Origin: Acidicapsa acidisoli
GTDB taxonomy: Bacteria > Acidobacteriota > Terriglobia > Terriglobales > Acidobacteriaceae
NCBI RefSeq assembly: GCF_025685625.1
Contig: NZ_JAGSYI010000002.1
Location: forward strand, 806,001 to 870,000
Direction of reading: 5' to 3'
DNA: 64,000 bases
Part shown: piece by piece, positions 39,756 through 51,106 of the stretch
Position numbering within the stretch: position 1 is the stretch's first letter
How the letters are laid out: the number at the start of each line of letters is the position of its first letter
Position numbers and translations under genes: made by a program
The notes under the pieces: model-generated
Seen by the model: the letters and a program-made list of their open reading frames with translations, nothing else
Told to the model about the DNA's origin: nothing
Database searches by the model: none

Positions 39756-40577
39756 TCACAGTTTCTCTTTATTCAGAATTCGATTTACCAGCGAGGTGGT
39801 TGTAGTTACGGCTTCCGCAACCGCAGCCTCGACGGGCGCGCTAAGTCCCATATGTCCCTCGTCTCCGCCCAAAGTCGCGGGTTCGCAGCCTACCAGGAGC
39901 ACTCGTTTGAGTGGCCCATTCATTGCGCGGGCCATGCGCAGTACGTTCATCGGATGCATGCTGTGCGGTTCGACGAAGTTTGGTTCGGATGCGGAAATCT
40001 TATCTGCATCCGGCTCCATAATGGAGACGGTTCCCGGTGGTTGTCCATGGGGATACGCGTCGATGAGGATGGTGGTTTCATAGCCGTCCTGCAAGGCGTA
40101 GGCCAGGTCGAGGCCGCGGATGCCGAAGTCAATCACACGCACTGCGGCGGGCAACTCGCATTTCGCCAGTCGACGAATCACCTCCACTCCGAATGCGTCG
40201 TCGCCGAAGAAGATGTTACCTATACCGGCGACGAGAATCTCCGGCTTCGCTGACAACGCTTTGACTGTCTGCTGATCTGGTGGGAGCAACTCGACTTCCG
40301 GGGGGCTGAAGAAGAAGCGGTGACCGGGTTGGCGCATCATGCCTAGATCACGTCCGGGATCATCCTCAAGCACCACGCAGATATGTATTTCACCTTCGTA
40401 GTCCTGCTCAAGACTCTCGATCGTTGCGATTTGTCCACGCAGGGCGATATCCAGAATATCGCCACCGTCTTTGGGATGGAGGCGCACGCGGTCTCCGGTT
40501 CTCAACTCGTCGCCGTTGACATACACGTGGTCGACTATGGCGTTGTCCTCGAGAAGGTTCCATTCCCATTCATTCAT
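39756..40577 (-). CDS. Hydrogenase maturation protease fused to an N-terminal beta-domain
   Basis: The C-terminal half (about 110-273) is a HyaD/HupD-type endopeptidase that removes the large-subunit C-terminal peptide once nickel is in. It has the GIGNIFFGDDAFGVEVIRRL nickel-sensing Asp region, IDAYPHGQPPGTV and EPHSMHPMNVLRMA. The N-terminal half (about 1-100) is a separate domain, with GDRVRLHPKDGGDILDIALRGQIATIE and the segment from ICVVLEDDPGRDLG to GHRFFFSPPEVELL. Such a domain is found fused or adjacent in group 1h loci and its function is not known to me. The ATG overlaps the upstream gene by 4 bases. Confidence 0.87.
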   Translation of the reverse strand: MNEWEWNLLEDNAIVDHVYVNGDELRTGDRVRLHPKDGGDILDIALRGQIATIESLEQDYEGEIHICVVLEDDPGRDLGMMRQPGHRFFFSPPEVELLPPDQQTVKALSAKPEILVAGIGNIFFGDDAFGVEVIRRLAKCELPAAVRVIDFGIRGLDLAYALQDGYETTILIDAYPHGQPPGTVSIMEPDADKISASEPNFVEPHSMHPMNVLRMARAMNGPLKRVLLVGCEPATLGGDEGHMGLSAPVEAAVAEAVTTTTSLVNRILNKEKL

Positions 40578-41641
40578 CGGAGCTCCTCATTGACTGGAGT
40601 CAAGCCGCGCAGTACTCCGTGCAGCTTCAAGAATTGCTCATCCGGCATGGATTCTGTGCGTTCAAGAATCGCGCGTGTGCGATCGTCGGACTGCCGCATC
40701 TCGCGCTTCTCGTCGTCAGTCAGGGTGAGAATTCGCAGGGAAAGAATCTCGTCGATCTCGGTGGAGTCAAAGAGATTGCCTGCGCTCTCAGGAGCAATTT
40801 GCGGGTAGTCGTAAAGGATGATCGGCGAAGATAGGACTGTATCTGCGTGCTTCGCAGCTTTGTCACCGACAAGAACCGGCCATGTGCCAACGTTGTTACA
40901 CTCTGTGGCAAAGTCTTTCAAGTCTGGCGGAGGCTCAAGCAGGGATACGAATTCACCTAGCTCGACACCAAGAACCGTGTGCGCCGAGACCATCGAAAAC
41001 ATGAGGACAGCTTCGCGTTCCTCCGATTCAAGTTCGTCATTGCCAGCCAGATTACTAACTTGCACCTGGAGCCGGAAGAGGCCGTCGTGGCAACGCTGCG
41101 AGGATAATTGAACCGATCCTGTCAACGTCTCCCACTGGCGGACAATTGCTCCTTCTTCCCTGCCCTGCTCATCCACCAGATACTCCACAGTCTTCCCTTT
41201 CGGAAACGTGAACTGTATGCACGAATGCGACAAAAGATTCGTCGGATCAAGCTCTCCATAAGTAAGATCCCGTTCAACTGCCTCCTGCCACGGTAGATAG
41301 ACTCGACCGCATGATTCGAAACTATCGACGAATTCATATAGACGAGACGCTTCAACGCGTTCTTCAGATTTCGATGTGTTGAGCCGGGCGATGGATCGCT
41401 GAACAATTTGAAGGAAACGCACCTTCACTGTGAGACGCGTCGAGTCCGATACTCTGACCAGGCACTCGGTCTGCATCGAGGAAGCTTCCGATCCCAACTG
41501 AAGGTCGCACCAGGATTGGGGATAGAGCACGCCGAAGTTCCATCGCTGCTGGTTTTTGATCGACGACTGTCTATAGGGATACAGCATATATCCCTCATAG
41601 AGTACGGCTTCGGCGATCTCTTCGACGCGATCCAGATTCAT
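40574..41641 (-). CDS. Conserved group 1h hydrogenase-cluster protein of unknown function
   Basis: The 355-residue protein starts MNLDRVEEIAEAVLYEGYMLYPYR and carries QQRWNFGVLYP, NVGTWPVLVGD, SSPIILYDYPQIAPESAG and FDSTEIDEILSLRILTLTDDEKREMR. I recall closely similar proteins from high-affinity hydrogenase loci of Actinobacteria and Acidobacteria, without an assigned activity. No metal-binding cysteine cluster or membrane helix is visible. Start 41641 is chosen on conservation; the frame extends to 41704. It overlaps its neighbours on both sides. Confidence 0.8.
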   Translation of the reverse strand: MNLDRVEEIAEAVLYEGYMLYPYRQSSIKNQQRWNFGVLYPQSWCDLQLGSEASSMQTECLVRVSDSTRLTVKVRFLQIVQRSIARLNTSKSEERVEASRLYEFVDSFESCGRVYLPWQEAVERDLTYGELDPTNLLSHSCIQFTFPKGKTVEYLVDEQGREEGAIVRQWETLTGSVQLSSQRCHDGLFRLQVQVSNLAGNDELESEEREAVLMFSMVSAHTVLGVELGEFVSLLEPPPDLKDFATECNNVGTWPVLVGDKAAKHADTVLSSPIILYDYPQIAPESAGNLFDSTEIDEILSLRILTLTDDEKREMRQSDDRTRAILERTESMPDEQFLKLHGVLRGLTPVNEELR

Positions 41642-42288
41642 GATTTCACCAACTCCTCTGCAAGCAGCATCCTCTCCAGCGCCTGTTCCCACGTAGGGAT
41701 GCAATGTTGCATCTTGTATAGATAAAGACGATTAAAGACATCACGACGCAGGCTAATCCAAACACCGTTCGGGTAGTATGTATCCATCATTTCGCGCCAC
41801 ACTTTCACCGGCAGCTTAAATCTTGCTTCCTGTTCCCATGAGATGGGTGCTACTTGCAGCGCGCTATCGAGTGGTGCATAGAAGACGGTGCCGCTAAAGA
41901 GCATGAGTAAGGGGATTTCACCGTCGGAAAGACCCTCAAAATACTTCGTTGCGGCGACGTTGAAGTCGAAGGTACACGGGACCTGAAGATCAACAGTAGT
42001 AGTAGCGCCCTCGAAGCCGGGAACGACCAGGTTGACGTGGGTCCACAGCATGCTACGCAGAGTCTGGCTCCATCGATCTGGCTCGCCAAAAAGATCGCGC
42101 ATGCGGCCTTGTTCCTCTGGAGTATAGCGGCGGCGGGTGACTTCGATCTGTATCTGGCAACGCAACGCAACGGTGTGAATGGCCTCGTCGGATTTAGCGT
42201 TTCTGATTTTCAGCCTAAAGGCAAGCATGGGAACAGCCGCGAACGGGACGATTTCCACTGCATCGATATGGAAGCTCAGATCAGGCAT
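41638..42288 (-). CDS. DUF6084-like hydrogenase-cluster protein
   Basis: A 216-residue soluble protein, PDLSFHIDAVEIVPFAAVPMLAFRLKI at the start and GVWISLRRDVFNRLYLYKMQH near the end. It resembles the uncharacterised DUF6084 family seen beside group 1h hydrogenases. Conserved patterns (YTPEEQGRMRDLFGEPDRW, LWTHVNLVVPGFEG, LLLMLFSGTVFY) suggest a beta-rich fold. It overlaps the next gene by 4 bases and the previous by 8. The function is unknown, and the family name is from memory and needs a profile search. Confidence 0.72.
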   Translation of the reverse strand: MPDLSFHIDAVEIVPFAAVPMLAFRLKIRNAKSDEAIHTVALRCQIQIEVTRRRYTPEEQGRMRDLFGEPDRWSQTLRSMLWTHVNLVVPGFEGATTTVDLQVPCTFDFNVAATKYFEGLSDGEIPLLMLFSGTVFYAPLDSALQVAPISWEQEARFKLPVKVWREMMDTYYPNGVWISLRRDVFNRLYLYKMQHCIPTWEQALERMLLAEELVKS

Positions 42289-43631: not shown

Positions 43632-45431
43632 TCACGGCTGCTGAACGCCGAACATCGGAGAGTGGTGTGTTTCGAGTACCTTCCCATTGCCGAGGTACAT
43701 GTGCACACCGCAGGGCAGACAGGGATCGAAGCTGCGCACTGCGCGCATGATGTCGATGCCCTTGAATTTATCCGGACCATTTTCTTCGAAGATCGGAGTG
43801 TTTTGCACAGCATCCTCATACGGGCCCGGAGTGCCATAGGAATCGCGCGGGTTGGCGTTCCAGGGAGTTGGAGGGTAAGGATGATAGTTGGCGATCTTAT
43901 GATCGCGGATTACGACGTGATGCGATAGAACTCCACGCACCGCTTCGTGGAAGCCGCAGCCGATTGCTTCCTCAGGCACCTTAAATTCGTTCCATGTGCG
44001 CGTGCGGCCAGCGTGCAACTCGGCCAGGGCCTGCTCGGCGAAGTGAAGCGCTGCTGCCGCGGCGTAAGCCTGGAAGTAGGTGCGCGCTCGATCCCGCTCG
44101 ATGGCATTGCTCCACTTGGGGATCTTCCACTCGAACTCGACCTCTGGCAGCGAAGTGGTTTTGGGAAGGTAGATCTTGACGCTGTGACCTGTCGCTTTGA
44201 TATAGCCAATGTCGACGATTCCGGCCAGCGCCGTGGCCCAGAAACGCGCGATAGGTCCACCGCCGGTATCGAGCGCGAGATAGTCGCCGGTGCGCTTGTC
44301 GTACCAGCGAGGCGACATAACCCATGTGTACTTCTCTTTGAAGTCGCGCTTCTGAGGTCTGGGGAAGGTGCTTTGATTCCAGGGGTGACGCTGGTCGACG
44401 GGATTGCCCAGCGGGTCCTGCTTGACGAAGGTCTGTGAGTTTTGCCAGTCGTCATAGTAGGAACTGCCGAGCAGAATTCGAATGTTCAGATTGATATCCA
44501 CGAGATCTGTCGTAACCAACTGGCCGTCGACAACAACGCCTGGGGTAACGAACATGCCGCGACCCCAGTTCGTCATGTTCGCATAGGTGTAGTCGCAGAC
44601 TTCGGGGTCGTTGAAGGAGCCCCAGCATCCAAGCAAAATGCGCCTGCGACCCACTTCTTCATAGCCGGGGAGGGCTTCATAAAAGAAGTCGAAGAGATCG
44701 TCATGCAACGGCACGACTTTCTTCATGAACTCGACGTACTTCATCAGGCGGACGATGTAGTCGGTGAAGAGTTGCACTGTTGGTACTGTGCCGACGCCGC
44801 CGGGATAAAGCGTAGACGGATGAACGTGGCGGCCTTCCATCAGGCAGAACATCTCGCGCGTCATGCGACTCACTTGAAGTGCTTCACGATAGAATGCGCC
44901 GGTGAATGGATTGAGCGCGGTCATGATCTCGCTGATGGTGTGGTAGCCGTGCAGTTCAGCGTGAGGCGCGGCAGTGCGCTCTGCCTTCTCCCATACGCCG
45001 GGATTGGTCTCTTTGACCATTTTTTCGCAGAAATCCACGCCGACCAGATTGTCCTGGAAGATGTTGTGATCGAACATATACTCGGCGGCTTCACCAAGGT
45101 TGACGATCCACTCGGCAATCGCTGGCGGGCGGACGCCAAAGGCCATGTTCTGCGCATAGGTGGCGCAGGTGGCGTGGTTATCTCCACAGATTCCACAGAT
45201 GCGGCTGGTAATGAAATGGGCGTCACGAGGGTCCTTGCCCTTCATGAAGATGCTATAGCCCCGGAAGATGGACGAAGTGCTGTGACATTCGGCAACTTTG
45301 CGCTTGCCAAAATCGATCTTGGTGAAGATACCCAGACTGCCGACGATCCTTGTAATTGGATCCCAGTTCATCTCGACTAACTGGCTGGTTTGGGCGGCGT
45401 CTTCTCTTTGCGCGGCGGTAATCGTGCCCAT
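43632..45431 (-). CDS. hhyL: [NiFe]-hydrogenase large subunit, group 1h type
   Basis: The 599-residue catalytic subunit splits H2 at a Ni-Fe site. The four ligands are visible: L1 motif TSRICGICGDNHATC with Cys79 and Cys82, and L2 motif DPCLPCGVH with Cys571 and Cys574. After His577 a 22-residue peptide remains that the maturation protease should remove. The GDNH form of L1 and the extended HMYLGNGKVLETHH tail are typical of the oxygen-tolerant high-affinity group 1h (former group 5), which takes up atmospheric H2. A GGAGA ribosome site precedes the ATG. It forms an operon with hhyS, 21 bases upstream. Confidence 0.95.
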   Translation of the reverse strand: MGTITAAQREDAAQTSQLVEMNWDPITRIVGSLGIFTKIDFGKRKVAECHSTSSIFRGYSIFMKGKDPRDAHFITSRICGICGDNHATCATYAQNMAFGVRPPAIAEWIVNLGEAAEYMFDHNIFQDNLVGVDFCEKMVKETNPGVWEKAERTAAPHAELHGYHTISEIMTALNPFTGAFYREALQVSRMTREMFCLMEGRHVHPSTLYPGGVGTVPTVQLFTDYIVRLMKYVEFMKKVVPLHDDLFDFFYEALPGYEEVGRRRILLGCWGSFNDPEVCDYTYANMTNWGRGMFVTPGVVVDGQLVTTDLVDINLNIRILLGSSYYDDWQNSQTFVKQDPLGNPVDQRHPWNQSTFPRPQKRDFKEKYTWVMSPRWYDKRTGDYLALDTGGGPIARFWATALAGIVDIGYIKATGHSVKIYLPKTTSLPEVEFEWKIPKWSNAIERDRARTYFQAYAAAAALHFAEQALAELHAGRTRTWNEFKVPEEAIGCGFHEAVRGVLSHHVVIRDHKIANYHPYPPTPWNANPRDSYGTPGPYEDAVQNTPIFEENGPDKFKGIDIMRAVRSFDPCLPCGVHMYLGNGKVLETHHSPMFGVQQP

Positions 45432-45452: not shown

Positions 45453-46517
45453 TTAGTACGTACTGGACTTGTAGCCGGTGGTGAGTTCGGCGCGTGGATG
45501 CCGCCACTTTGGCTCTTTGTTGACAGTGGCGTTGGTCATGGAGCGCAGGGCGCGAATCGCCGTGCCGTAGACGCCGACCGCGGTGCTTGAGAGTTTGCCG
45601 CCGGGAGGCTCGTCCATGAATGGCATGAACTTGTCGGGGAAGCCCGGCATAGTGCAGCCGATGCAGATGCCGCCAACATTGGGGCAGCCGCCGATACCGG
45701 CCATCCAGCCGCGCTTGGGGACGTTGCAGTTCACGACAGGCCCCCAGCATCCGAGCTTGACGATGCATTTCGGCGAACCGTAGGACGTGGCAAAATCACC
45801 CTGCTCGTAGTAGCCTGCGCGGTCGCATCCCTCGTGCACTGTTTTACCGAAGAGCCATGTGGGCCGCAGTTGGTCATCGAGCGGAATCATCGGGGCCAGG
45901 CCAGCGACTTGATAGAGCAAATACAGCACTGTCTCCATGAAGTTATCCGGCTGCACCGGGCAGCCGGGTACATTCACGATCGGCAGGCCAGCCTTGGATT
46001 TCCAGCCCCAACCGAGATAGTCGGCCAACCCCATGCAGCCAGTGGGATTGCCTTCCATGGCGTGAATGCCGCCGTATGTAGCGCATGTTCCGCAGGCGAT
46101 GACGGCGAGTGCTTTCGGAGTCAGGCGGTCGATCCATTCATTGGTGGTGATGGGCTGACCAGTAAGTGGATTGGTTCCGAGGCCCGCCCAGTAGCCTTCT
46201 TTCTTGATCTTCTCGTTGGGGATGGAGCCTTCCACGACAAGCACGAAGGGATCGAGTCGTCCTGCCTCTGCCTCATACCAGAATTTCAGAAAGTCATCGC
46301 CGTTCTCATAGGCAAGCACGGGATTGTGCAGATGCACTTTTGGCAGCCCCGGGATTGCGCCCAACAGGACGTCTTCAATGCTTGGCTGCGTGGCCGCTGT
46401 GATGGAAACGGAATCTCCGTCACACCCCAGACCTGCGGTGATCCACACGATGTGCAGTTCCGCGACTGCGGGTTTCTTCTGAGTAACTCGACCGTAAGGA
46501 GCTGCTTCTGGTGTCAT
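45453..46517 (-). CDS. hhyS: [NiFe]-hydrogenase small subunit, group 1h type
   Basis: The 354-residue electron-transfer subunit carries three FeS clusters. Proximal-cluster ligands are Cys32 and Asp35 (GLGCDGD, the Cys-to-Asp exchange known for the Ralstonia actinobacterial-type hydrogenase), Cys145 (CGTCATYGG) and Cys186 (GCPVQPDNF). Later Cys residues (231, 251, 257, 264, 278, 285, 288) with His228 serve the medial and distal clusters. There is no Tat signal, so the enzyme faces the cytoplasm. AAGGAGAA precedes the ATG. A 405-base regulatory gap separates it from the response-regulator gene. Confidence 0.95.
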   Translation of the reverse strand: MTPEAAPYGRVTQKKPAVAELHIVWITAGLGCDGDSVSITAATQPSIEDVLLGAIPGLPKVHLHNPVLAYENGDDFLKFWYEAEAGRLDPFVLVVEGSIPNEKIKKEGYWAGLGTNPLTGQPITTNEWIDRLTPKALAVIACGTCATYGGIHAMEGNPTGCMGLADYLGWGWKSKAGLPIVNVPGCPVQPDNFMETVLYLLYQVAGLAPMIPLDDQLRPTWLFGKTVHEGCDRAGYYEQGDFATSYGSPKCIVKLGCWGPVVNCNVPKRGWMAGIGGCPNVGGICIGCTMPGFPDKFMPFMDEPPGGKLSSTAVGVYGTAIRALRSMTNATVNKEPKWRHPRAELTTGYKSSTY

Positions 46518-46922
46518 AACCTGGATTCTCCTTTTCGGATATTGGCTGGTCTTGCATGTAGATTGCAGGCGACACCGCGCGGCATCCGCCTAAAACGCAA
46601 CTCAATCGCGAATAAATTCAGGAACGATAAGTCCGAATGATGTAAGCGAATTTTCCCGGTTTGCGTCAGCGCACAGTGGGCTTTAGCTGCGTTCACGCTC
46701 AGGAGAGACAGCGGGAAAACACCCCTCCTTAAACCCAGTTATCGGAACAGACGCGAGGAAAGGCTCGCAAGCGGGATGGACCCTATTCTGCGCTCATACT
46801 TGTTGCTCAAAGATAGATAGGGGAATTCCTGATACTAATATCAGGGAGTTTTGTAACTGGGTGTAGATACGCGAGCATCCTGCGGGATTGGAGTCTCAAA
46901 GGAAAGTCCGACTTGCGATAAC
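46518..46922. promoter_or_regulatory. 405-bp regulatory gap upstream of hhyS
   Basis: No plausible gene is present. The gap must hold the 3' end of the response-regulator transcript and the promoter of the hydrogenase operon, read on the minus strand. A clear inverted repeat lies at 46828-46845 and AAGGAGAA lies just before hhyS. I found no convincing sigma70 or sigma54 promoter by eye. Confidence 0.5.
46828..46845. promoter_or_regulatory. Perfect inverted repeat CCTGATA-N4-TATCAGG
   Basis: A 7-bp perfect dyad with four-base spacer, 78 bases beyond the response-regulator stop and about 310 bases before hhyS. It may be a binding site for the LuxR-type regulator encoded next door, or a weak terminator of its transcript; a TTTT follows on the plus side only. 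Confidence 0.45.
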
Positions 46923-47627
46923 TCAGCTTGACTTCTCGTTGATCTTCCACTGAATGGCGTGCTGGATCAGTTCGCGACCGCTGCGCAGTGCGAGTTTTTC
47001 TTTGAGGTGAGCCTGGTAAGTCTCGACCGTTTTAATGCTCAGGTGTAGTTCGTCGGCTATTTCGCGGGTCGCGCGGCCTTCGCCGATCAGGCGAAAGACT
47101 TCCAACTCGCGATCGGAGAGCGCGGCGATGCGCGACTGAATCATTGATGGGGCGCCACCGATGAACTGCTGCAGCATCTTGTTGGACATGCGGTCACTCA
47201 GATACAGGTCGCCATTGAGGATGCGGCGAATCGCTACCAGAACTTTTTCCGAAGCCTCCTGCTTCATGATGTAGCCGTTGGCGCGGGCACGTAGTGCGCG
47301 TTCGGCATAAATCGCTTCATCGTGCATGGATAGAATCAAAACAGGCAGGCCAGGGTCGGAGGCGCGAATGCTCTTGAGCAATTCCAGGCCGTCAGGACCG
47401 TTGAGCGAGATGTCCAGGATGAGAATGTCCGGTCGATGCCGGGCGATGGCCTGCATCGCGGCTTGCGCTTCCTCGGCTTCGCCGCAGACTTCCATATCGT
47501 GCTGCTGATTGATTAGAAGTGCAAGCCCCTGGCGCATGAGGGGGTGATCGTCTACAACCAAGACAGCTTTCTTGCCCTGATGCCTGAATCCCTCGCTCAT
47601 GGTGGTTGCCGCCATGTGTCTATCCAT
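46923..47627 (-). CDS. NarL/LuxR-family response regulator beside the hydrogenase operon
   Basis: The 234-residue regulator has a receiver domain (about 20-135) with acidic Asp26-Asp27 and phospho-acceptor Asp72 (LILDISLNGPDG), then a LuxR helix-turn-helix (LSDRELEVFRLIGEGRATREIADELHLSIKTVETYQ). The start overlaps the histidine-kinase gene by 8 bases; later ATGs at 47615 and 47600 are alternatives. It is the nearest gene upstream of hhyS on the same strand, which makes the hydrogenase operon its most likely target. Confidence 0.92.
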   Translation of the reverse strand: MDRHMAATTMSEGFRHQGKKAVLVVDDHPLMRQGLALLINQQHDMEVCGEAEEAQAAMQAIARHRPDILILDISLNGPDGLELLKSIRASDPGLPVLILSMHDEAIYAERALRARANGYIMKQEASEKVLVAIRRILNGDLYLSDRMSNKMLQQFIGGAPSMIQSRIAALSDRELEVFRLIGEGRATREIADELHLSIKTVETYQAHLKEKLALRSGRELIQHAIQWKINEKSS

Positions 47628-49215
47628 AGGACCTGATGGGGAATATGCATGTTACGGCCGTTCCCTGAACGGGCGCCTGTGCGATCTCCAACGAGCCGCC
47701 GATCATGCCGGCGCGATGGTTCATGATGTGAAGACCCATGCCATGGCTGTTTCCATGAATGAGGGAGATTCCACTGCCGTCGTCCTGGATAAGCAGCGTA
47801 CCCCAGCCATTCTCGGCCGTCAAACTGAGCAGGATGTTGCGAGCCCTGCCATGTTTCAGGGCGTTGTTCACCGCTTCCTGAGCAATGTGATAAAGGTGAG
47901 TGGCCATGGCATCGTCGTGAATCAGGACTTCGCTGCTGCACTCAAAGCGGCAGGTTATCCCAAATAGATCCTCAACTTCTGCCGCCCTGAGTTGCAGGGC
48001 CGACATCAGTCCCCGCGCGTCGGAGACTACAGGCAACAAACCTCGGGCCAGTTCGCGGGTCTTGTGGATGGCTTCATTGACCAGGCGCACGATTTTGGCG
48101 GCATCGGCTGCGTCAGTCAATTGTTTCTCAGCCAGTTTTGCTTCGTGCACCTTGGCCATGAAGGCTATACCGGTCAGGTGCTGCCCCAGGCCATCATGCA
48201 AGTCCTGCCCGATGCGCCGCTGCTCTCGGGCGCTGATGTTCACCAGCGCTTTTTCCAACTGCTCGCGTTCGGTGATATCGATCCCTGTCGCGATGATGTA
48301 GTTGGGTGTGCCATTGATTTGCGGCAGCATGGTGGTGGACCACGCGATAAGCCGTCGCGCGCCGTAGCGCGTCACCCAGTGGCTGCGGAAGTCGCGAGGC
48401 AGTAAATCGGCACTCAGTTCCGCAAAGGTAGCCTTGAAGCGCTCAACCTCTTCGGGTAACAGGAAGCATTCCCAGATGCATTTGTTTCGAACTTCGTGGA
48501 AGGAGTATCCAGTCGTCAGTTCGCAGGCACGGTTGAAGCGCACGATACGGCCTTCCGGGTCCAAGACGGTGACCAGGGCGCCGACCGTGTCCAGGATACC
48601 GGAGACTACGTTCCGCTCCTGTTGCAGAGCCTCTTCGGTGCGTTTCAGATCGGATATATCGAAGGCAACGCCGTGAATGAACCACGGCTCCCCGTCCGCC
48701 CGCCTCACCATTCGCGCGTCGCAGTGAAACCAGACCACGTGGCCATCGCGCGCAATCACCCGGTAAGAGGAGCGGAGCGGCGTGCCTGATAAGAACATGC
48801 TTGCCGCTTCCGTGCTCCAGCGCTGTTTGTCGTCGGGATGAATGTGCTGATACCAGCGAACTGGGTCTTCCAGCCACTCCTCGCGGGAGTATCCCAGTGC
48901 TGCCTCGATCTCGGGGCTGACATAGGCCTCGCTGACCCCGCGGTCTAAATAGGCCATGAAAACGACGGCGGGAATCTGTTCGAGCAGGGCGCGGTATTTG
49001 GCTTCGAGATTGGAATCTGGAGCGTCTCTCGAAGGCAGCGGCGACGCACTTGGAGGGACTTGGACAAATATGGAGGCCGCTTCCTCAGTCGCGTTGCTGA
49101 AGACACTCGCCAGATTGAGAAGGATCGCTTCCGCGTCAACGAGTTCGGGAGAAGACGCAAATTCCTCGAAGTGAGGACCTCGGTTTCCCCAGCCGGTCTG
49201 CTGAGATGATGCCAC
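47620..49215 (-). CDS. Soluble PAS-PAS histidine kinase (HisKA_3 type)
   Basis: The 531-residue kinase has an N-terminal region of about 70 residues without known domain, PAS 1 (about 75-190, ending WFIHGVAFDISDLKRTE) and PAS 2 (about 200-320, ending IATGIDITEREQLE). The dimerisation/phosphorylation helix REQRRIGQDLHDGLGQH has the acceptor His340. A HATPase domain with EAVNNALKHG and DDGSGIS follows. There are no membrane helices, so the signal is cytoplasmic. The GTG start follows CGGAGAGAA. It lies 95 bases downstream of an orphan hydrogenase small subunit and overlaps its response regulator. Confidence 0.92.
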   Translation of the reverse strand: MASSQQTGWGNRGPHFEEFASSPELVDAEAILLNLASVFSNATEEAASIFVQVPPSASPLPSRDAPDSNLEAKYRALLEQIPAVVFMAYLDRGVSEAYVSPEIEAALGYSREEWLEDPVRWYQHIHPDDKQRWSTEAASMFLSGTPLRSSYRVIARDGHVVWFHCDARMVRRADGEPWFIHGVAFDISDLKRTEEALQQERNVVSGILDTVGALVTVLDPEGRIVRFNRACELTTGYSFHEVRNKCIWECFLLPEEVERFKATFAELSADLLPRDFRSHWVTRYGARRLIAWSTTMLPQINGTPNYIIATGIDITEREQLEKALVNISAREQRRIGQDLHDGLGQHLTGIAFMAKVHEAKLAEKQLTDAADAAKIVRLVNEAIHKTRELARGLLPVVSDARGLMSALQLRAAEVEDLFGITCRFECSSEVLIHDDAMATHLYHIAQEAVNNALKHGRARNILLSLTAENGWGTLLIQDDGSGISLIHGNSHGMGLHIMNHRAGMIGGSLEIAQAPVQGTAVTCIFPIRSYG

Positions 49216-49232
49216 GGTTCTCTCCGCCTAAG

Positions 49233-49257
49233 TACATTCCGTCCAAATACATTCGGT
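49233..49257 (-). repeat. Imperfect direct repeat upstream of the kinase gene
   Basis: Two 10-base units, TACATTCCGT and TACATTCGGT (9 of 10 identical), start 15 bases apart in the gap between the orphan hhyS paralogue and the kinase gene. They could be a regulator site. Otherwise the 95-base gap shows nothing. Confidence 0.4.
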
Positions 49258-49310
49258 TCCGGCAATCAACTTTTGGTTGCTTCAACCGAAATGAACTTCT
49301 GCCTTCCGTA

Positions 49311-50333
49311 CTACTTGGCTGGTTGAGCGGTTCGCTGCCGCCAACTCGGTATTTTGTTCAGGGACGCCTGTGTGAACTTTCGAAGTGCATGAATCGCCCG
49401 CCCGTATGTCTGCACTGCCGACGAAGAAAGCAGCGATCCGGGCGGCTGGTTCATGAAGGGCATGAACTTGTCGGGAAAACCCGGCATCGTGCAGCCGATG
49501 CAGATTCCACCCACATTGGGGCACCCGCCGATTCCTCCCATCCAGCCGCGCTTGCCAACGTTGCACTGCACCACCGGTCCCCAACAGCCCAGTTTCACGA
49601 TGCATAATGGCGATCCGTACTCTTCTGCAAACTGCGCCTGCTCGTAGTAACCTCCACGGTCGCATCCCTCGTGGACCGTATTTCCGAAGAGCCAGGTGGG
49701 GCGCAGCGCTTCATCGAGAGAAATCATAGGCGCGCGCCCTGCGGCCATGTAAAGGAGATAGAGCAGGGTTTCCATGAAATTATCCGGCTGGACCGGGCAG
49801 CCGGGCACACAGACGATGGGAATGGCGGCCTTGGACTTCCATTGCCACCCGAGGTAATCGGGCAGCCCCATGCACCCGGTCGGATTCCCCTCCATGGCGT
49901 GGATGCCGCCGTAGGTAGCGCACGTTCCCACGGCGATCACGGCCCAGGCATGAGGAGCGAGCCGGTCAATCCATGAGCAGGTGGTAATGGGCTGGCCTGT
50001 GGCTGCATCCGTGCCCAGCGAAGCCCAATATCCCTCCGCTTTATTGTTTTCATTGGGGATAGAGCCTTCGATTACGAGAATGAACGGCTCTAGTTTGCCT
50101 TCCGCAGCCAGGTGGAAGCGGCGCAAAAAATCGTCCCCGACCTCGGAAGACAGAAAGGGATTATGGAAGTTCACTCGGGGAGTCCACGGCAACGCACCTC
50201 GAACTATGTCCTCGATGCTCGGCTGTGTTGCCGCAGTCATGGCGATCGTATCTCCGTCGCAGCCCAGACCGGCGGTGATCCAGAGAACATCGATTTCCGC
50301 GATTGGCGGCGAATTCAGACTCCAGTTAGCCAA
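49311..50333 (-). CDS. Orphan second hydrogenase small subunit (HhyS paralogue)
   Basis: A 340-residue paralogue of HhyS, similar along the whole length and keeping the cluster ligands: Cys25/Asp28 (GLGCDGD), Cys138 and Cys179, His221, Cys224, Cys244, Cys250, Cys257, Cys271, Cys278 and Cys281. One extra cysteine of HhyS (Cys142, CGTC) is Val135 here (VGTC). No second large subunit accompanies it. It is followed on the same strand by the kinase and response-regulator genes. An in-frame stop lies just upstream, leaving TTG 50333 as the start, with AGGGTGA as ribosome site inside a hairpin. A sensor or alternative electron-transfer role is inferred. Confidence 0.9.
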   Translation of the reverse strand: MANWSLNSPPIAEIDVLWITAGLGCDGDTIAMTAATQPSIEDIVRGALPWTPRVNFHNPFLSSEVGDDFLRRFHLAAEGKLEPFILVIEGSIPNENNKAEGYWASLGTDAATGQPITTCSWIDRLAPHAWAVIAVGTCATYGGIHAMEGNPTGCMGLPDYLGWQWKSKAAIPIVCVPGCPVQPDNFMETLLYLLYMAAGRAPMISLDEALRPTWLFGNTVHEGCDRGGYYEQAQFAEEYGSPLCIVKLGCWGPVVQCNVGKRGWMGGIGGCPNVGGICIGCTMPGFPDKFMPFMNQPPGSLLSSSAVQTYGRAIHALRKFTQASLNKIPSWRQRTAQPAK

Positions 50334-50338
50334 AAATC

Positions 50339-50375
50339 ACCCTGCGCTTCCCAACGGGAATATGCGACGCAGGGT
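50339..50375 (-). promoter_or_regulatory. Nested hairpin covering the ribosome site of the orphan hhyS paralogue
   Basis: An outer perfect 8-bp stem (ACCCTGCG with CGCAGGGT) encloses an inner stem TTCCC-AAC-GGGAA. In the minus-strand transcript the 3' arm contains the AGGGT of the presumed ribosome site, only a few bases from TTG 50333. Folding would hide it, suggesting translational control. Confidence 0.5.
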
Positions 50376-50405
50376 CCATAGTGTGCCAGAAATGAGGTTT
50401 AGGCA

Positions 50406-50425
50406 AGCGGAGAGGAGCCTCCGCT
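50406..50425 (-). terminator. Hairpin just after the hydrolase gene
   Basis: AGCGGAG and CTCCGCT form a perfect 7-bp stem with a six-base loop, starting nine bases beyond the hydrolase stop in its reading direction. It probably ends the hydrolase-dioxygenase transcript before the orphan hhyS paralogue. No T-run follows. Confidence 0.5.
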
Positions 50426-50434
50426 ATGACTAGA

Positions 50435-51106
50435 TCAGCCGATGGCACTCCGGATGAGCTCGCGAGCGAGTTCGATTTCTTCCGCTGTTACGGTGTGAGG
50501 CCGGCCGGGATAACGCCTGGTCGTCACTTCCGCGCCCATGTCGCGGAGAATGGCCGCAGACTCCTCAACCCTTGACCAGGGGACGTGCGGATCGGGGTCT
50601 CCGCTGGCGAAGAGGGCGGGCATACCTCCGAGTTCAGCGCTCCTTAAGCTGATTTGATCGGAGCTGGTTTGATCGCTCCGGATTGAGCCGGGCGGTCCGA
50701 TCAATCCACCGGTGAGAGCGATCAGGCCTCCGTAGCGGGAGGGAAAGCTCTTCACAAACTCCGTCGAAAGACAGGCGCCTTGCGAAAATCCGCCGATGAC
50801 GATGCGGTCGCGTGGAATTCCCGCCTCTTCGATAGATCGGACCACCGCGTTCACCTTGGCGAGAGCTGAGCTAAGGAATGGCTCGTTGGCCTGCCTGGGG
50901 GCGAGAAACGACTGCGGATACCATGTGTTCCCTTTCGCTTGCGGCGCAAGATAGGCCACTTCCGGTTCCCCGATTGCCTGCCCCAGGCCCAGTATGTCCG
51001 CTGCCGAGCCGCCGCGCCCGTGGAGCAGCACGACGGCCAGCGCAGCTTGTTTGAGAGGTGCGCCGAAATGTATCACCTCTCCGTTACCATGCGGATCAGA
51101 AATCAT
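50435..51106 (-). CDS. MhqD-like carboxylesterase/phospholipase, alpha/beta hydrolase
   Basis: The 223-residue hydrolase has LLHGRGGSAADI (oxyanion region), the nucleophile motif GGFSQGACLS with Ser108, the acid in ASGDPDPHVP and His204 in PGRPHTV. It resembles Bacillus MhqD and similar carboxylesterases. The start, ATG 51106, overlaps the ring-cleaving dioxygenase stop (ATGA). The same pairing occurs in the mhqODE operon of Bacillus, which answers quinones and other electrophiles. A short duplication, DQTSSDQIS, lies near residue 145. Confidence 0.85.
   Translation of the reverse strand: MISDPHGNGEVIHFGAPLKQAALAVVLLHGRGGSAADILGLGQAIGEPEVAYLAPQAKGNTWYPQSFLAPRQANEPFLSSALAKVNAVVRSIEEAGIPRDRIVIGGFSQGACLSTEFVKSFPSRYGGLIALTGGLIGPPGSIRSDQTSSDQISLRSAELGGMPALFASGDPDPHVPWSRVEESAAILRDMGAEVTTRRYPGRPHTVTAEEIELARELIRSAIG

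Follow-up and report, generated by a model that had tools for sequence, protein, structure and literature searches.

The 64,000-nucleotide stretch of the Acidicapsa acidisoli genome analysed here (contig NZ_JAGSYI010000002.1, positions 806,001 to 870,000; in the following, the window) contains the genes hhyS and hhyL of a high-affinity group 1h hydrogenase. Upstream of them lie three genes that encode a second, paralogous small subunit, a soluble PAS histidine kinase and a response regulator. In sequence comparisons, the small-subunit lineage to which the paralogue belongs shows a genetic link to kinases that have one type of PAS domain and an N-terminal LxxLA motif in common; a candidate operator palindrome 5′ of hhyS goes together with close orthologues of the regulator. 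It is almost certain that the paralogue and the kinase form a conserved module. We propose that the three genes constitute a sensor-regulator circuit dedicated to the high-affinity hydrogenase, in which the paralogue would share HhyL with hhyS. The probability of this chain as a whole is estimated at about 0.5.

Two small-subunit clades and their kinases

A tree of 108 small subunits, taken from 73 loci and further stretches and calculated with a quick method, splits into two clades with SH-aLRT support of 99 each. hhyS falls into clade A (53 rows) and the paralogue into clade B (55 rows). The large-subunit gene is located directly 3′ of the clade-A gene in 51 of the 53 rows; of the other two, L083 is placed at a contig end and L207 has an adjoining large-subunit gene that was missed through overlapping open frames. 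A clade-B gene is in most loci not directly followed by a large-subunit gene. Instead, in 53 of the 55 clade-B rows a kinase with the special PAS, the type represented by the first PAS domain of the window kinase, is encoded on the same strand no more than 6 kb downstream. The two remaining rows are L061, which is cut by a contig end, and L076, where the kinase is encoded about 10 kb farther on. According to their titles, the records with clade-B subunits come from Acidobacteriota, Planctomycetota, Verrucomicrobiota, Myxococcota and Pseudomonadota; many of them are metagenome-assembled genomes (MAGs), whose titles may mislead. The sequence-only reading, from which this analysis started, had named conservation in related genomes as a check of its proposal and a paralogue widespread without the kinase as evidence against it. 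The conservation of the pair over several phyla has been borne out, and apart from L061 and L076 no such separation was found.

The same association is seen in whole genomes, which are not independent of one another in the following counts. In a sample of 249 genomes of the order, 29 contain a small subunit, 15 of them in two copies and 14 in one. A first-PAS match above 200 bits is present in all 15 two-copy genomes and in none of the 14 one-copy genomes; weak PAS matches occur also in G148 and G209, both without a subunit match. A large subunit belonging to the paralogue and always encoded elsewhere, which the sequence-only reading had likewise held to speak against its proposal, is not indicated, since 27 of the 28 genomes of this sample with HhyL have a single match and the other has two pieces of one. 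The phylum sample comprises 396 genomes, 17 with a small subunit, and six of its ten two-copy genomes belong also to the order sample. The kinase is present in 10/10 two-copy and 1/7 one-copy genomes, the latter including G534, whose subunit is only 43% identical, and G487, which has a fragment. The single one-copy genome with the kinase, G346, has a clade-B subunit as its sole copy, and G349 shows a weaker PAS match (117 bits) and no subunit. Genomes belonging to 40 of the 73 loci were chosen for further tests, and 11 were chosen later (G268 is in both sets). The PAS was detected in 36 of the 40, the remaining four carrying a single clade-A subunit, and in 4 of the 11.

The set of 72 kinases with the special PAS includes those of G116 and G208 and a few second copies. 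All 72 match PAS_3, while the transmitter domains vary (HisKA_3 in 51, HisKA in 13, HisKA_2 in 3) and four of the kinases have a receiver. The N-terminal motif AExxLxxLAxxF is matched in its strict form by 57 of 73 kinases. In the 72-row alignment one L and one A of LxxLA are conserved to at least 90%, the other such positions being situated in the PAS and the transmitter. In the model of the window kinase, which is of low confidence (predicted local distance difference test score, pLDDT, about 50; predicted template modelling score 0.41), residues 24–48 form a helix flanked by disordered stretches. A flexible helix on kinases with a single partner suggests a docking peptide. The motif is altered in the subunit-less kinases of G116 and G208. 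At locus L104 (7959-9808) a kinase, a close regulator and the operator precede hhySL and no paralogue is encoded within 8 kb upstream; this kinase frame lacks precisely the first PAS and the LxxLA motif. No residue pattern in the PAS could be attributed to a cofactor, and heme, flavin or cysteine chemistry was discarded; the Planctomycetes kinases L065 and L079 lack the Cys found in the WFHC stretch. Five genomes encode a second kinase with the special PAS and one clade-B subunit that could be found (L205/L058 in G255, L206/L060 in G257, L073 in G268, L199 in G275 and L201 in G276). Perhaps two kinases read one subunit there.

The window paralogue is 73% identical to hhyS across 331 amino acids without a gap. 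Its small-subunit domains (Oxidored_q6 and NiFe_hyd_SSU_C in Pfam) and the ligands of three iron-sulfur (FeS) clusters, with the Cys/Asp pair at the proximal site, mark it as a group 1h small subunit and confirm what had been read from the sequence. The aligned ligands are C25, D28, C138 and C179; H221, C224, C244 and C250; and C257, C278 and C281, their allocation to individual clusters being assumed from [NiFe] structures. The gene is not encoded directly with an HhyL of its own. The triad contains no large-subunit gene, and the only one follows hhyS. The earlier description of the paralogue as an orphan is thus accurate for the immediate locus but not for the genome. The nonsynonymous divergence (dN) of the paralogue from five relatives is 0.06–0.12. 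Its ratio to the synonymous divergence (dS), a quantity close to saturation, was obtained for two of the five pairs and amounts to 0.03 and 0.05. For hhyS the ratio is 0.03–0.05 in four of five pairs. By these values the paralogue shows no decay. Chance or a recent duplication as its origin was rejected in view of the two-clade tree and the low dN.

Clade B as a whole retains all FeS ligands with the exception of Asp to Glu in 7/55 rows and one missing call of Cys281 (98%); D28 is kept in 87%. The proximal-cluster Glu is found in the subunits of L066, L069, L071, L075, L078, L093 and L103. The best solved relative, the actinobacterial-type HofK (5aa5), aligns over 328 residues without a gap and keeps the FeS ligands. 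It shares with clade A the C-terminal LTTGY tail, which is missing from the window paralogue and gone from most of clade B, with traces in L058, L067, L070 and L075. Further clade-A residues that are not fixed in clade B are located at 43-56, 128, 170, 187-196, 234-243 and 295. The stretch 234-243 adjoins the distal-cluster ligand C244, and PK 242-243 within it is lost in clade B. In 132 alignment columns both clades are more than 95% identical. The cysteines C119 and C175 are present together in 44/55 clade-B rows versus 4/53 clade-A rows. A proximal cluster of the O2-tolerant type was considered and rejected, as C119 also occurs in 15/53 clade-A rows and neither C119 nor C175 coincides with what we take to be the positions of the extra cysteines in E. 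coli Hyd-1. The structural model of the small subunit has low confidence in the half that binds the clusters (mean pLDDT 62).

The operator-like site and the locus

The 17-base palindrome 5′ of hhyS (Table 1) is the only site in the window matching its consensus with three or fewer mismatches. Among 36 distinct hhyS promoters, a count that left out 12 of 70 loci whose small subunit lacked one of the anchor motifs, the palindrome is perfect in nine and present with up to three mismatches in 26, compared with about 0.1 sites in first-order random sequences. A fuller recount covered 61 distinct promoters, with 4/70 loci dropped (L034, L064, L204 and L207). With up to four mismatches, the palindrome was found at 30/31 loci where the regulator is close, at 0/6 where it is distant and at 4/22 that have no regulator, the cut of 280 bits between close and distant having been chosen after the fact and one of the six distant regulators (L102) being a fragment. 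With up to three mismatches the counts are 27/31 for close regulators and 2/22 for loci without a regulator. These two are L105, whose genome shows no PAS, and L091, which is cut upstream and whose genome has the PAS elsewhere. The site is also present at L085, where the frame is split, and at L099, which lies at a contig end; their regulator pieces score below 280 bits, and both loci are outside the 31 and the 6. The consensus was derived from the same loci in which it was then counted, and the loci with no regulator or a distant one serve as the check. At L046 and L066 the palindrome is located directly 5′ of hhyS while the regulator gene sits 2.7 and 3.8 kb upstream, respectively.

From this co-occurrence the regulator is predicted to act on hhySL, as the sequence-only reading had supposed for the hhyS promoter, and we consider this very probable. 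Activation, not repression, is assumed as the direction of control. No palindrome was found 5′ of the paralogue, where the best candidate has five mismatches. Genome-wide, with two or fewer mismatches, 0–7 sites per genome were counted, amounting to 80 in 22 genomes versus 20 for the reversed pattern. Of these, the 16 genomes that encode the kinase account for 64 versus 9 and the six that do not for 16 versus 11. The excess in the kinase genomes may reflect further targets or base composition. Among the matches listed, the perfect palindromes of G232, G014 and G117 are all at hhyS. A sigma-70 scan gave one site against a shuffle mean of 2.2. A perfect inverted repeat, CCTGATA-TTAG-TATCAGG (46828-46845), overlaps the operator-like site in the window; it is not among the palindromes listed for the other hhyS promoters.

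Table 1. Genes, domains and candidate regulatory elements of the hhy locus (window coordinates)
Feature	Position	Strand	Remarks
Paralogous group 1h small subunit (clade B)	49311-50333	minus	340 aa, TTG start, all FeS ligands retained
Soluble PAS-PAS-HisKA_3-HATPase_c histidine kinase	47620-49215	minus	531 aa
Kinase N-terminal motif AEAILLNLASVF, candidate docking helix	49099-49134	minus	residues 28-39
First kinase PAS, type accompanying the paralogue across phyla	48625-49008	minus	query residues 70-197
NarL/LuxR-type response regulator	46923-47627	minus	234 aa
Palindromic operator-like site, consensus ATCRGGGAWTCCCYGAT	46817-46833	minus	2 mismatches
Second conserved promoter block TCCCGCTTG, candidate core promoter element	46768-46776	minus	40 bases 3′ of the operator
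hhyS, canonical small subunit (clade A)	45453-46517	minus	
hhyL	43632-45431	minus	sole HhyL match in the genome

The order of the genes, paralogue, PAS-PAS kinase, overlapping regulator and hhySL, is exactly as had been read from the sequence, with 95 bases between paralogue and kinase, an overlap of 8 bases between kinase and regulator and a gap of 405 bases between regulator and hhyS. The Pfam domains of the kinase (PAS_3, a second PAS, HisKA_3, HATPase_c) and of the regulator (Response_reg, GerE) are those of a two-component system of the NarL/FixJ type. The 7.1 Mb genome contains two small-subunit matches, both at this locus, and in the tree their closest named relatives are from Edaphobacter. 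The region 3′ of hhyL encodes a NifU-like protein, DUF5947 and DUF6084 proteins, an unknown protein and a maturation protease, followed by hyp genes. The identities of hypC, hypD and hypE are backed by matches to annotated genes of pHG1; the names of the remaining hyp genes are presumed. The frame at 40574-41704 encodes a conserved hhy accessory protein that matches neither Pfam nor NCBIfam. An Rfam scan of 46400-51000 gave no match.

Proposed sharing of HhyL and alternative explanations

HhyL was found in 39 of the 40 chosen genomes with a small subunit. Seven assemblies contain HhyL and, as the only small subunit found in them, one of clade B. The gene order is small subunit, kinase, large subunit in G254 and G256, and small subunit directly followed by large subunit in G265, G271 and G274. 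The two genes are head to head in G268 and on different contigs in G279, with no small-subunit gene before the large one; G279 agrees in size and coordinates with G346, which is 99% complete with 1% contamination. Four further one-subunit genomes (G259, G260, G262 and G277) were excluded because their large-subunit gene is truncated, sits at a contig end or could not be found. These occurrences favour a paralogue that swaps onto HhyL over one that senses through its FeS clusters alone. The sequence-only reading had put the latter first and had offered the swap as an alternative, in the form of a second electron exit. The swap is now the favoured part of that proposal, as a sensor and not merely as an exit, and the FeS-only sensor is the less supported one. 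That the paralogue works together with HhyL appears slightly better than an even chance. G278 encodes a clade-B small subunit, large subunit and kinase together and a second set of small and large subunit. One reading of the unrooted tree is that the acidobacterial triad derives from such an older arrangement and has since lost its large-subunit gene. Covariation gave a partial r of -0.13 for paralogue and HhyL, of 0.37 for kinase and hhyS and of 0.38 for kinase and paralogue, in a test whose positive control, hhyS and HhyL, failed (0.05).

In the proposed circuit the paralogue would replace hhyS on the single HhyL, so that part of the HhyL pool would become a sensor form. Having lost the hhyS tail and the fixed residues on the side of the distal cluster, it would dock on the N-terminal helix and the first PAS of the kinase and would no longer hand electrons to the respiratory partner. 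We infer the signal sensed by the circuit from its parts: the activity of the kinase would be set by H2 oxidation or by the redox state of the FeS chain. The phosphorylated regulator would then bind the palindrome and control hhySL. The circuit would operate as HoxBC does with HoxJ and HoxA, except that metabolism and sensing would draw on the same large subunit. It is possible, and here we are more tentative, that the paralogue is part of a transferable receptor cassette, in which a subunit of a respiratory enzyme serves as a sensory domain, plugs into kinases with interchangeable transmitters by the short helix and the one PAS type, and borrows HhyL.

Several observations weigh against the circuit. 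In G277 the paralogue and the kinase are present and no large subunit was found. The seven clade-B-only assemblies are mostly MAGs of uncertain completeness, and G254 (a stop in the large-subunit gene and a short kinase) and G271 (a stop in the small-subunit gene) are weaker cases. In a quick tree, the five placeable large subunits beside clade-B subunits fall outside the main large-subunit clade (support 91), that of G279 falling inside; the pairing of those five is therefore no proof for the HhyL of the window. A regulator gene is missing beside the kinase in 15 of 55 paralogue loci, one of which (L034) is a split frame, and L055, which has a close regulator, offers at best a site with five mismatches. 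The one-copy genome G103 of the order sample shows a weak PAS match (93 bits, 40%). G116 and G208 encode the kinase, with the first PAS, and the regulator, and have neither a small nor a large subunit, which shows that the kinase can exist without the subunits. Their loci (L233 and L234) both have a beta-glucosidase-like gene nearby, and the gene downstream at L233 is presumably a nitric oxide reductase.

Three other explanations have to be considered. The clusters of the paralogue could be set by the electron pool of the cell and gate the kinase with HhyL never bound. Such an FeS-only sensor of redox state or electron flux would fit a triad that has no large subunit and retains the FeS ligands, a paralogue-kinase pair encoded at a distance from hhySL in several genomes (L058, L072 and L077 among them) and the frequency of C119 together with C175 in clade B. 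We regard it as unlikely in view of the nearly constant presence of HhyL, the seven assemblies where no partner other than a clade-B subunit was found for it, and the columns conserved across both clades, which seemingly exceed what clusters alone would need. The retained ligands in turn speak against a pure reporter of HhyL supply, for which they would be superfluous. Here the paralogue would bind mature HhyL that lacks hhyS, and the kinase would report the assembly of the enzyme, not H2. Although the gene evidence from the clades and the operator is the same as for the proposed circuit, and a mostly retained conserved core with a lost hhyS tail would be accounted for, this explanation seems improbable. 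Slightly less credit still is given to a second electron-exit subunit that offers HhyL another acceptor beside a kinase sensing something else. A changed exit would agree with the missing tail, with the absence of PK 242-243 next to the distal-cluster ligand C244 and with the clade-B subunit being the only one found with a large subunit in the seven assemblies, but without some link to signalling it is difficult to account for one PAS type kept across phyla on varying transmitters.

Relation to known systems and significance

The triad resembles the group 2b system HoxBC/HoxJ/HoxA in that a small subunit is encoded beside a soluble kinase and a regulator serving hydrogenase genes, and the gene order around hoxB on pHG1 was examined for this comparison. 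HupUV with HupT is a comparable regulatory hydrogenase system, and a linked soluble PAS kinase is common to both of them and the triad. In contrast to HoxBC and HupUV, the triad does not contain a complete sensor pair of small and large subunit. The paralogue belongs to group 1h and is only 32% identical to HoxB. The window kinase is similar to HoxJ in generic domains only (blastp E 0.23), so that the earlier comparison with HupT and HoxJ can be upheld for function only. The regulator is of the NarL type, whereas the hoxB neighbour on pHG1 carries the annotation sigma-54 dependent. The C-terminal extension of 50 residues given for HoxB in PMC5665086 is absent from the paralogue, whose tail is even shorter than that of hhyS. 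On this comparison the triad is not counted as a member of the HoxBC/HupUV family; the likeness is kept as a functional analogy. The regulatory roles of HoxBC, HoxJ and HoxA are described in PMC10073562 and PMC5665086.

The extra hhyS itself is already published. PMC8027828 describes an additional hhyS in strain KBS 83 and in E. aggregans, placed about 3,600 bp upstream as it is in P. methylaliphatogenes. A transcript of the additional copy was detected in KBS 83 but none in E. aggregans. According to the same text, the hydrogenase is induced in carbon-limited stationary phase, with hhyL rising about 125-fold and 3.5-fold. In our tree, the extra copies of KBS 83 (L037), E. aggregans (L040) and Pyrinomonas (L103) are of clade B. 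The main text of PMC8027828 does not contain "histidine kinase", "two-component" or words starting with "regulat". Literature searches, which covered subscription journals only in small part, found no paper that ties the extra hhyS to a kinase and none that names a kinase for the control of an atmospheric-H2 hydrogenase. Compared with the accessible text of PMC8027828, the link to the kinase, the split into clades and the operator are new here.

The triad is present in the cultured strains KBS 83, Edaphobacter aggregans and Edaphobacter lichenicola; Pyrinomonas has it with a more distant regulator and no palindrome site. For the control of atmospheric-H2 hydrogenases in soil bacteria, the triad and the palindrome offer candidates for the sensor, the kinase, the regulator and the DNA site at once. 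If HhyL is shared, a single catalytic subunit would serve metabolism and sensing. If, beyond that, the receptor cassette is real, one HhyL would both oxidise and sense atmospheric H2, and the cassette would be an H2 sensor operating near the atmospheric concentration.

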